NCBI GenBank assembly: GCA_947173945.1
Contig: CAMWGV010000018.1
Span: forward strand, 1 to 45,173
Origin: an uncultured Lachnospiraceae bacterium
GTDB taxonomy: Bacteria; Bacillota; Clostridia; Lachnospirales; Lachnospiraceae
Length of the DNA stretch: 45,173 bases
Reading direction: 5' to 3'
Below are positions 12,940 through 31,073 of the stretch, in pieces. Below the pieces are notes generated by a model. It had not been told where the DNA came from, searched no databases, and worked only from the letters and a program-made list of their open reading frames with translations. How positions within the stretch are numbered: position 1 is the first letter of the stretch; each line of letters begins with the position of its first letter. The position numbers and the translations under genes are program-made.

Positions 12940-12955
12940 TAGAACGAGACAGGCA

Positions 12956-12986
12956 GGTGCCGCTTTTAGAAAGCGGTACCTTTTTT
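12956..12986 (+). terminator. Intrinsic terminator after the Cys-rich gene
   Basis: An 11-bp stem (GGTGCCGCTTT with AAAGCGGTACC, one G-U pair) and a 3-base loop at 12956-12980, followed by six T (12981-12986). Confidence 0.9.
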
Positions 12987-12988
12987 AA

Positions 12989-13275
12989 TTGGAAGATGCT
13001 TATAATTCACTATAAGAAAACCGTTTGAAGACGTCGGTACTTGAACTGCACATTTAGGATAGCCCCCTATACACAGCATGAGAAAACACGCTCCCGCTCG
13101 TCTCAGACGTAATGGTACATAAGGTGCTAAAATACAGCACCTAAGTACCAACGTCTTCAAACGGTTTTCTTATGCTGTGTATAGGGGGCTATCCTAAATG
13201 TGCAGTTCTTAGTACCGTTACGTCTGAATCAAGCGAAAGCGTGTTTTCATATAGTGAATTATAAGCATCTTCCAT
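12989..13275. repeat. Non-coding extended palindromic element with 24-bp perfect terminal inverted repeats
   Basis: An intergenic block of about 285 bases with almost no unpaired sequence. Outer arms 12991-13014 and 13250-13273 are perfect 24-bp inverted repeats, flanked on each side at 2 bases by TTAA (12985-12988 and 13276-13279). A second perfect inverted pair of 37 bp lies at 13043-13079 and 13172-13208. A further pair, 13015-13042 and 13143-13170, matches at 27 of 28 positions. The segments 13080-13117 and about 13209-13249 are also inverted copies of each other, and diverged, longer relatives of the 28-bp block. The centre is a hairpin (AGGTGCT/AGCACCT, 13122-13142). It lies between a terminator and the abc-F promoter. 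No protein is encoded. A MITE-like non-autonomous mobile element is the simplest reading; a structured RNA or an invertible switch are alternatives. Confidence 0.85.
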
Positions 13276-13291
13276 TTAAATAAGGAAAGCC

Positions 13292-13320
13292 TTGACACCA
13301 AAAAGGGCTGTTGTTATACT
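13292..13320 (+). promoter_or_regulatory. Promoter for the ABC-F gene
   Basis: TTGACA (13292-13297), 17-base spacer, TATACT (13315-13320), 42 bases ahead of the ATG at 13362. It begins only 17 bases past the palindromic element. Confidence 0.85.
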
Positions 13321-29074: not shown

Positions 29075-30730
29075 ATGGAAAAAATAGAAATTGTGATGGA
29101 TGGAAAGGCATACAGGATTGATAAATTGACCACTGTTGAGGAGTTTATTAATCAATTTATGCCCGACGAAAAATATAAATATGTGCTGGCATTCAGAAAT
29201 AAAAAGCTTTGTGAGCTTGGAACTGTTCTTGACAGGGACTGTGAGATTGAATTAATTACTGCCGCCAGTGTAATTGGAAATGATACATATAAAAGAAGTT
29301 TAAAGTTCCTTATGCTTAAATCATTTGCAGATGTTATTGGCAGGGAAAACAGGATCAATGTGATGTATTCTGTGGGCAAGGGCATATATTGTAAGCCCAT
29401 AGATGATAACTTCAAAATTACAGAGGAGATTATTTCAAAGGTCAAGTCCCGTATGCAGGAACTGGTGGATGAGGATATACCACTTGTTAAGGAAACGGTC
29501 GGAACTGATGAGGCTATAAAAAGATTTAAACAGCAGGGTATGGCTGATAAGGAAAAGTTATTTTCTTTCAGACGTGTATCCAAGGTTAATATATATAATT
29601 TAGAGGGATATGAGGATTATTTTTACGGATATATGGTTGCATCAACAGGATATCTGAAGTATTTTGACCTCCTGCCATATGATGAGGGAGTCGTTCTTAT
29701 GGCTCCTGCAAAAAATGAGCCGGGTATTATTCCAGAATATAAGCCGCAGGAAAAGCTGTTCAATGTTCTTAAAATATCTGATTTGTGGAGCAAAATGCTT
29801 GATGTTGACAATGTAGGTGATTTAAATGATGTGATTACAAATGGAGATATACGTGAGCTTATGCTTGTTCAGGAGGCATTGCAGGAAAAACAGATTGCTT
29901 CAATAGCCGATATGATAAAAGAAGGCGATAAGAAAATAGTTTTAATTGCAGGACCAAGTTCATCGGGAAAGACTACATTTTCACACAGACTAAGCGTACA
30001 GCTAAGAGCACATGGGTTGAGGCCTTATCCTCTTGCACTTGATAATTATTTCCTTGAGAGGGAGCTTACCCCTAAGGATGAGAATGGAAACTACGATTTT
30101 GAGTGCATAGAGGCAATGGATCTGGCACTGTTTAACTCCGATATGAAAAGGCTGCTTGCCGGTGAGGAGATTGACTTACCATCATTCAATTTCACTATCG
30201 GAAAGAAGGAATATAAGGGTAAGAAGCTGAAATTAAATGAAGGAGATGTGCTTGTGGCAGAGGGTATACATGCTCTTAATCCACTTATGACGGCACAGCT
30301 TCCGGATGATAGCAAATTCAAGGTATATATCAGTGCACTTACACAGCTTAATATTGATGAGCATAACAGAATACCTACTACCGATGGAAGACTGATAAGA
30401 CGTATCGTAAGAGATGCAAGGACAAGAGGAAATAATGCAAGAGACACGATAGGAATGTGGAACTCTGTAAGACGTGGAGAGGAAAAATACATTTTCCCAT
30501 TCCAGGAGCAGGCAGACGTAATGTTTAATTCTGCACTTATATATGAGCTCAGTGTTATAAAACAATTTGCCGAGCCACTTTTGTTTTCAGTTCCAAGAGA
30601 TTGCCCTGAATACTATGAGGCCAAGAGACTTCTTAAGTTTTTGGATTACTTCCTTGGACTTGATGTGACGAATGTTCCTACGAATTCAATATTAAGAGAG
30701 TTTGTAGGTGGGGGATGCTTCGATTTATAG
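29075..30730 (+). CDS. Nucleoside kinase with TGS-like N-terminus (uridine kinase family)
   Basis: A 551-aa protein with the beginning of a threonyl-tRNA synthetase: a TGS-like domain (residues 1-65, IEIVMDGKAYRIDKL) and a following second-additional-like domain. The C-terminal half is a phosphoribulokinase/uridine kinase domain with P-loop AGPSSSGKTTFSHRL and the DNYFLERELTPKDENGNYDF motif. It probably phosphorylates uridine or cytidine; the tRNA-synthetase-like part suggests regulation, but its role is unclear. The start is the ATG at 29075, with AAAGGGGG upstream; a GTG at 29057 would overlap the previous stop. Its stop lies directly against the 3' end of RNase P RNA on the other strand. 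Confidence 0.9.
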   Translation: MEKIEIVMDGKAYRIDKLTTVEEFINQFMPDEKYKYVLAFRNKKLCELGTVLDRDCEIELITAASVIGNDTYKRSLKFLMLKSFADVIGRENRINVMYSVGKGIYCKPIDDNFKITEEIISKVKSRMQELVDEDIPLVKETVGTDEAIKRFKQQGMADKEKLFSFRRVSKVNIYNLEGYEDYFYGYMVASTGYLKYFDLLPYDEGVVLMAPAKNEPGIIPEYKPQEKLFNVLKISDLWSKMLDVDNVGDLNDVITNGDIRELMLVQEALQEKQIASIADMIKEGDKKIVLIAGPSSSGKTTFSHRLSVQLRAHGLRPYPLALDNYFLERELTPKDENGNYDFECIEAMDLALFNSDMKRLLAGEEIDLPSFNFTIGKKEYKGKKLKLNEGDVLVAEGIHALNPLMTAQLPDDSKFKVYISALTQLNIDEHNRIPTTDGRLIRRIVRDARTRGNNARDTIGMWNSVRRGEEKYIFPFQEQADVMFNSALIYELSVIKQFAEPLLFSVPRDCPEYYEAKRLLKFLDYFLGLDVTNVPTNSILREFVGGGCFDL

Positions 30731-31073
30731 ATGCAAGTCGGACTGTAAGCCGGGTTATGTCGAGAGTGATTATCTATCTAGGCACTATGTTACCATAGTG
30801 CTCGAGCGACCTACCTAAAGACCCAGCGGGCAACTGCATAGTCTTATGTTTGGTCTTGCTTCGGATGGGGTTTACAGAGCCTGCCTTGTTACCAATGCAG
30901 CGGTGAGCTCTTACCTCGCCTTTCCACCCTTACTATATGAAATATAGCGGTATATTTCTGTTGCACTAGCCTGGGAGTCACCTCCACCGGACGTTATCCG
31001 GCATCCTGCCCTATGAAGCCCGGACTTTCCTCACCTGCCATATGGCAGCCGCAATCACTTATCCGGCTTGCAC
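30731..31073 (-). ncRNA. rnpB: RNase P RNA
   Basis: The catalytic RNA that trims tRNA 5' ends. Read on the minus strand it contains the conserved GAGGAAAGTCCGGGC near the 5' end (about 31033-31019), GGTAAGAGCTCACCGC with the preceding AAGGGTGGAAAGG, a GGTAACAAGGCAGGCTC segment, and the 3' ACATAACCCGGCTTACAG. The ends can pair as P1 (TGCAAGCCGGAT with GTCCGACTTGCA), which sets the limits to about 31073 and 30731. No terminator space remains before the nucleoside kinase gene on the other strand. Upstream on the minus strand are TTGAAA (31109-31104) and a GATACT at about 31088-31083, a weak promoter with short spacing. Confidence 0.96.

Follow-up and report, generated by a model that had tools for sequence, protein, structure and literature searches.

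A dispersed palindromic repeat, nested in alternating orientation, in genomes of Lachnospiraceae

In the attC sites of integrons, which are imperfect palindromes that vary in sequence, strand identity comes from conserved extrahelical bases. Other foldable repeats include BOX, RUP and SPRITE of Streptococcus pneumoniae, small interspersed repeats of MITE-like type for which a fold is predicted and which are modular and vary in length (BOX, 67-637 bp); SPRITE looks like a Rho-independent terminator and is concentrated around the 3' ends of convergent genes (PMC3049150). REP/BIME and REPINs with RAYT are extragenic palindromes, often alternating in orientation and suspected to be non-autonomous mobile elements, the REP units being hairpins of 20-40 bp with an unpaired GTAG or CGTC tag that stand side by side (PMC2817692, PMC3733652).

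Here we analysed an element at positions 12985-13279 of a 45,173-nt contig from an uncultured Lachnospiraceae bacterium ("the window" means this whole stretch), which the original prediction had described as an unrecognised extended palindrome with swapped short and long repeat blocks. We found that the element is made of two copies of one conserved palindromic motif, the inner copy lying reversed in the apex of the outer one, and that the motif is a dispersed repeat of many copies in genomes of one family. At the Rfam 15 gathering threshold no family falls on the element in the window or in 17 loci with copies, in line with its being called unrecognised, and a relaxed threshold gave only unrelated families far under their cut-offs. 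Among the matches listed in a literature search of open-access journal papers, none describes the repeat, which, with no name in the papers searched and no Rfam entry, appears to be undescribed. The sole Rfam match in the 17 loci is a T-box elsewhere in L120; in the window, a class A bacterial RNase P RNA lies at 30730-31070 on the minus strand (RF00010, 310.7 bits).

Sequence self-comparison recovered all four predicted inverted pairs, including the perfect 37-bp pair, in the block order given before; the perfect stretch of the outer arms is 25 bp long. The features of the element and its borders are as follows.

12955-12981, plus strand: terminator-like hairpin after the upstream 61-aa ORF, outside the element; a similar stem and T run lie at the empty site of G021 (L148)
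12979-13021 / 13243-13285: inverted pair, 93%, holding the perfect 25-bp stretch 12990-13014 / 13250-13274
13012-13042 / 13143-13173: inverted pair, 97%
13043-13087 / 13164-13208: inverted pair, 98% over 45 nt, including the perfect 37-bp pair
13082-13118 / 13212-13248: inverted pair, 84%
12990-13014, plus strand: left outer arm (TGGAAGATGCTTATAATTCACTATA), perfect inverse of 13250-13274
13017-13042, plus strand: the outer copy's A block, with 0 mismatches in its 16-mer core at 13027
13043-13079, plus strand: left middle arm, perfect inverse of 13172-13208
13083-13121, minus strand: B block, which in minus-strand reading is the inner copy's B' side, core at 13106 with 3 mismatches
13090-13097, minus strand: GC[GGGA]GC mini-hairpin (GNRA loop) of the inner copy, from sequence and family statistic
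13122-13142, no strand: tip hairpin (AGGTGCTAAAATACAGCACCT), from sequence and fold
13143-13168, minus strand: A block of the inner copy, core at 13143 with 1 mismatch
13172-13208, plus strand: right middle arm, from the inverted pair
13209-13247, plus strand: B' block of the outer copy with a 2-nt bulge, core at 13209 with 0 mismatches
13233-13240, plus strand: GC[GAAA]GC mini-hairpin (GNRA loop) of the outer copy, from sequence and family statistic
13250-13274, plus strand: right outer arm, perfect inverse of the left outer arm
12993-13274, plus strand: outer motif copy, model R1, 86.8 bits, E 1.3e-19
13056-13192, minus strand: inner motif copy, model R1, 103.1 bits, E 6.2e-24
13292-13320, plus strand: sigma-70-like promoter TTGACA-17-TATACT before the abc-F gene, outside the element, 11/12 match

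The 295-nt element folds as a single rod of -180.5 kcal/mol (z -22.8; shuffled mean -62.9), a value reached by none of 200 dinucleotide shuffles, and its opposite strand folds to -177.2 kcal/mol. The fully nested rod, one of two exclusive folds envisaged earlier, is the minimum-energy fold, with A opposite B' at every level. The covariance model R1, whose training set of 38 single copies from other loci contains no sequence from the window element, matches it on opposite strands, indicating two nested, oppositely oriented copies of one motif. The kinship noticed between the short and long blocks follows from this arrangement, as the short block forms the 5' side (A) of one motif stem and the long block its 3' side (B').

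Comparing loci of the window's own genome, we found that two blocks recur, A (AAAACCGTTTGAAGACGTCGGTACTT) and B (AAAACACGCTTTCGCTCGTCTCAGACGTAACGGTACTAA). Simple copies have the order arm, A, tip, B', arm, and two-level copies the order arm1, A, arm2, B, tip, A', arm2', B', arm1'; the window holds a two-level copy with cores at 13027, 13106, 13143 and 13209, and three-level copies occur as well (L021, L096, L110). The motif has a long outer stem that is nearly free to vary in sequence yet stays paired, followed by a junction with a near-invariant stem (AGACGTC-GGTACT / AGTACC-G-YT-ACGTCT) bearing a 2-base bulge (YT) on the 3' strand, a mini-hairpin GC[GNRA]GC, also on the 3' strand, and a variable tip. 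CGTC is found in the motif, but within the paired core. Arms are near-perfect within a copy, with 1074 of 1120 aligned columns of the two-level middle arm being Watson-Crick, and differ strongly in sequence from copy to copy.

The fold of the motif is marked by compensatory base changes. In alignment A1 (38 single copies from 16 genome groups, including 3 that come from elsewhere in the own genome), RNAalifold predicts 39 pairs, 30 of which have changed on both sides; 89.4% of the cells are paired, and the covariation score is 0.502, compared with 0.180 for shuffled and at most 0.155 for slid alignments. In the arms, conversion of one arm by the other at the DNA level would give the same signal. 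The near-invariant stem itself covaries, by eye, in genomes outside A1, reading CAGTACT/AGTACTG in L201 and L215 and GGTTCT/AGAACC in L206. Among 163 distinct B' units, a GNRA loop is present in 145 of the 152 left after exclusion of 6 ambiguous and 5 unplaced units, the placement having been made without the loop letters. RNAalifold puts the mini-hairpin in a neighbouring register, GCG[ARAG]CGY; coordinated stem variants (AC/GT, 6; GT/AC, 4) favour the GNRA register.

Mapping the motif beyond the window, we found 111 matching pieces at many places of the own genome (G000, 2.84 Mb, 108 contigs), where the 16-base A core occurs 53 times with up to 2 mismatches and the B core 49 times, compared with 3 and 5 in the reversed controls, and where 27 rods measure 124-511 bp. 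Within the genus, when at most 1 mismatch is allowed, there are 46 A cores in the own genome, 14 in G014 and 8 in G021, while 12 of the 24 other genomes, some of which are incomplete, have none. Across one genome per species, a 15-base A core is present in at least 106 stretches, and A and B cores occur together in 62 of these, labelled Lachnospiraceae, Clostridia, Eubacteriaceae, Bacillota, Acetatifactor, Butyrivibrio, Clostridium and one Bacteroides MAG, and including the named isolate Anaerobium acetethylicum GluBS11, which carries three copies in L118; the remaining 44 A-core stretches, many from unrelated phyla, have no A/B cluster. A model search of 243 genomes of the class matched 7, all from the window's family, that is, 7 of the 10 listed family members with the own genome included, the other 233 being taken as outside the family from kinship-ordered rows. 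As the filter was strict and at most 13 candidates were scored per genome, copy numbers from the model are lower bounds. The phage and plasmid collections gave no match to the element, and the 7 exact 15-mer matches on viral contigs include none with the motif by model. In the MAG labelled Bacteroides sp. (JAMPBO; L046, L096, L109-L111), whose label is possibly wrong, three-level as well as single copies resemble the ones found in the window's genus.

At the window site, the element begins directly after the T run of the terminator-like hairpin and lies in a tandem gene setting, between the 61-aa ORF, which has no Pfam match, and a downstream gene that we name ABC-F from its two ABC_tran stretches and ABC_tran_Xtn (Pfam). 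Promoter-like sites are about as frequent as in shuffled sequence (2 found, 2.2 expected). Upstream of abc-F, none of 17 same-genus stretches (L148-L164) has an A/B cluster or a model match; the small upstream ORF is the same in 13 of them and the neighbour is different in 4 (G004, G013, G022, G024). In the nearest relative, G021, the flanking matches are 65 nt apart, compared with 360 in the window. TTAA is present on both sides of the element, as had been noted, and its reading as a target-site duplication is ambiguous when set against the related empty site L148; a clean target-site duplication was not seen. At the L008 site, G001 and G014 carry a bare terminator, GGCTGTCGC-TTAG-TGCGGCAGC-T6, and at the L015 site they have a terminator-like hairpin instead. 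L194 (G021) and L015 occupy the same convergent gap with two-level copies in opposite orientation and with unrelated outer arms. At two orthologous sites, those of the window and of L008, species differ in whether a copy is present. These results support the proposal of an unrecognised, extended palindrome that is probably of a mobile type, with dispersed copies that match no Rfam family and absence from this place in the relatives read. A copy at the same place in all relatives with compensatory changes had been named as evidence against mobility, and here the outcome is mixed: the place differs, but compensatory change between copies is massive. Two model matches lie more than 1 kb from the site upstream of abc-F, in the longer loci L147 and L137, the one in L147 (3203-3406, minus strand, 49.5 bits, G024) immediately 3' of the abc-F homologue.

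Copies with and without an inner segment coexist in the own genome (L256/L247) and in G014 (L265/L264). Short direct repeats (CAACTT, TTGTACAA) stand on either side of the difference in these pairs, so slippage deletion explains them as well as insertion does; TTGTACAA at L247 is itself palindromic. A second copy lies in the right-hand third of L264; its A and B' meet at ACCGTT and its tip is lost, as expected from direct-repeat slippage. In one gap shared by two species (L176/L192, G021:C10, compared with L016), the G021 copy is reduced to A opposite A'. A base stem of many own-genome copies, GGGCTGTCGCACTAAG, is common to plain hairpins there (L227-L231), of which L232 and L233-L234 are shorter relatives. 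In addition, G000, G001 and G014 have a second subfamily with ends ATAGGCAATTGCGAAACT and sizes of about 211, 153 and 80-92 bp (L235-L238, L247, L250, L267-L269, with L238 more diverged; short and medium forms L248, L256, L263-L266, L270), whose medium form lacks the invariant stem and keeps the mini-hairpin, and whose terminal repeats are unrelated to those of the first subfamily in the same genome. An extra small hairpin (GTCCTCAGGAC... with CGTCTGCTTCGCAGACG) is found in the loop or tip of unrelated copies from two species (L180, L271).

The gene setting, as read from a crude ORF-based caller, differs between forms of the repeat. Convergent genes flank 16 of the 24 two-level rods, compared with 20 of 160 element-free gaps (p = 5e-8); the count is 12 of 45 for single copies (p = 0.03) and 0 of 2 for three-level copies, and a looser caller gives 21 of 25 two-level and 18 of 53 single copies. 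A cis-acting, oriented 3' UTR element was considered on the strength of 19 versus 11 orientations with the looser caller and rejected, since the stricter caller finds the copies beside tandem genes evenly split (13 in the direction of the genes, 14 against it). By raw counts without a shuffled control, 16 of the 26 own-genome copies have an A-rich or T-rich base, compared with 16 of the 70 from other genomes, and 9 of the 26 and 11 of the 70 are T-rich on the 3' side of the base; the window copy has no T-rich 3' side. The difference in A/T-rich bases makes the terminator link mostly a feature of this genus.

Imperfect pairs carry a strand signal in some parts of the motif. On the A-B' strand, G.U and A.C pairs are about equally frequent in the arms (51 versus 42 in single copies; 32 versus 35 and 22 versus 19 in two-level copies), indicating no strand preference there. 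Tips lean to G.U (single, 15 versus 4, p = 0.02; two-level, 33 versus 20, p = 0.10), the conserved core of A1 has 16 G.T and 6 A.C cells (8 versus 3 when counted per genome group, pair and type), and one-sided changes in the mini-hairpin are 12 G.T and 3 A.C in the GNRA register; the 17 versus 0 in the RNAalifold register come mostly from one pair (columns 114-123) that is absent from the GNRA register. The excess of G.U and G.T points to the A-B' strand as the one that probably folds. Against it stands a core position that reads C.A on this strand time and again. Since G.T is better tolerated than A.C in DNA too, the G.T excess does not distinguish single-stranded DNA from RNA.

In the loci compared, 118 distinct clusters comprise 74 single, 33 two-level and 3 three-level copies, 5 partial multi-level rods, 1 side-by-side pair and 2 other two-block patterns, with no case of nesting in equal orientation, copies related by descent being counted separately, so that independent events are fewer. 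Among the 42 clusters with more than two blocks, 36 alternate cleanly (33 two-level, 3 three-level), 5 are partial rods whose next block is too decayed or missing, and 1 consists of two copies side by side. A decayed third-level block above threshold is found on 12 of the 72 outer sides of these 36 rods, and all 12 alternate; they belong to L024, L035, L177, L179, L181, L183 and L186, mostly from G001 and G014, with L181 and L183 being one place in two species. That outer levels are older is unsupported for intact two-level rods, in which outer blocks are not more decayed than inner ones (mean mismatches 0.39 versus 0.59). Apex insertion with inverted duplication of the loop is suggested by L227 compared with L027 and by L265 compared with L264, the latter being equally explained by direct-repeat deletion.

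The original prediction saw in the 37-bp arms, which are perfect and inverted, the sites of a recombination that would flip the core as a switch. Such inversion would give nesting in equal orientation (A>A>B<B<), but none of the 42 distinct multi-block clusters in the loci compared shows it, which argues against a switch; moreover, L181 and L183, at one place in two species, share orientation. We therefore regard the switch as highly improbable. The reading that we prefer, at about even confidence, is a non-autonomous, MITE-like palindromic mobile repeat that would act in folded form and be tolerated or favoured at gene 3' ends. The repeat is dispersed, short, non-coding and bounded by terminal inverted repeats, as MITEs are, and its ends differ between subfamilies. 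A trans-acting factor would recognise the folded single strand, and copies would persist mainly where a hairpin is harmless or takes the place of a terminator, that is, next to the 3' ends of genes and chiefly in convergent gaps. Nested rods may form when copies land in, or grow from, the apex of an existing hairpin, while arm-to-arm copying of the kind called quasi-palindrome correction could keep drifting arms complementary and slippage between short direct repeats could wear rods down to shorter forms. This scheme of trans-mobilisation through the folded strand, apex growth, arm conversion and slippage erosion, and with it the function of the repeat, is inferred. Speaking against mobility, no mobilising protein was found: a search for Y1_Tnp (PF01797) gave 0 matches in the own genome and matches in 5 of 14 control genomes; inspection by eye of the 25 largest protein clusters, built from the 1237 ORFs of L030-L135, brought no transposase to light, and, also by eye, the ORFs of four stretches with more distant copies of the terminal inverted repeats look ordinary. 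It seems unlikely, if conceivable, that the repeat stands for a new class of mobile elements recognised as hairpins, in which the folded strand with its bulge and GNRA mini-hairpin would be the substrate of a putative enzyme that inserts this strand into the loops of other hairpins, into terminators and into the strand's own apex, making rods grow from nested copies of strictly alternating orientation.

The conserved fold could equally be read at the RNA level, as a GNRA loop and covariation may mean a functional RNA as readily as a mobile repeat. The A-to-B' strand would then be transcribed, in 3' UTRs or alone, the three-way junction with its GNRA hairpin and bulge would be bound or processed, and the copies would be a high-copy regulatory or RNA-stability element. 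Conservation of the fold across the 16 genome groups of A1, the GNRA loop in 145 of 152 B' units, the coordinated stem changes of the mini-hairpin with its 12 versus 3 one-sided changes, and the G.T excess in the A1 core (16 versus 6 cells; 8 versus 3 per genome group) speak for it; the arms without strand preference, the even orientation relative to tandem genes (13 versus 14), the inner copy lying antisense to the outer one in two-level rods, the lack of an Rfam family match and the recurrent C.A core position speak against it, and we consider this reading possible but doubtful. Host-maintained palindromes, that is, bidirectional terminators or chromosome-structure sites of the sort suggested for REP/BIME, elaborated from terminator hairpins at convergent gene ends without transposition, would account for the convergent-gene bias, for the occurrence of the base stem GGGCTGTCGCACTAAG in plain hairpins there as well as in copies, and for the A-rich or T-rich base of 16 of 26 own-genome copies. 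However, a base of this type is limited to 16 of the 70 copies from other genomes, the window copy sits 3' of an intact terminator-like hairpin and is missing at orthologous gaps, and the second subfamily in the same genome has unrelated terminal repeats, making this explanation rather unlikely.

A non-autonomous mobile repeat remains our preferred reading of a structured repeat that is found in many copies in genomes of one family of gut bacteria and appears to lack a name in the papers searched, an Rfam entry and a known enzyme. Nested alternation together with a strand-specific junction makes it a good test case for how large bacterial palindromes originate, spread and survive, and for whether repeats of this sort function at the DNA or the RNA level. 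It also draws attention to a gap in annotation that recurs where convergent genes end. In comparison with known systems, the repeat resembles integron attC sites, by general description, in being an imperfect palindrome of variable sequence with conserved extrahelical bases, and the structured RNA classes of Rfam 15 in its covariation, GNRA loop and junction. Identity with RAYT-mobilised REP was rejected, given the absence of Y1_Tnp from the own genome and a hairpin size and tag unlike those of REP. REP/BIME share with the repeat their nature as extragenic palindromes, an often alternating orientation and suspected non-autonomous mobility, whereas here nested rods of 124-511 bp carry CGTC in the paired core in a genome without Y1_Tnp. 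BOX, RUP and SPRITE are likewise MITE-like, foldable, modular and of variable length, with an enrichment at convergent 3' ends in SPRITE; unlike them, the present repeat has apex-nested alternating modules, near-perfect copy-specific arms and a junction conserved across the genera of one family.
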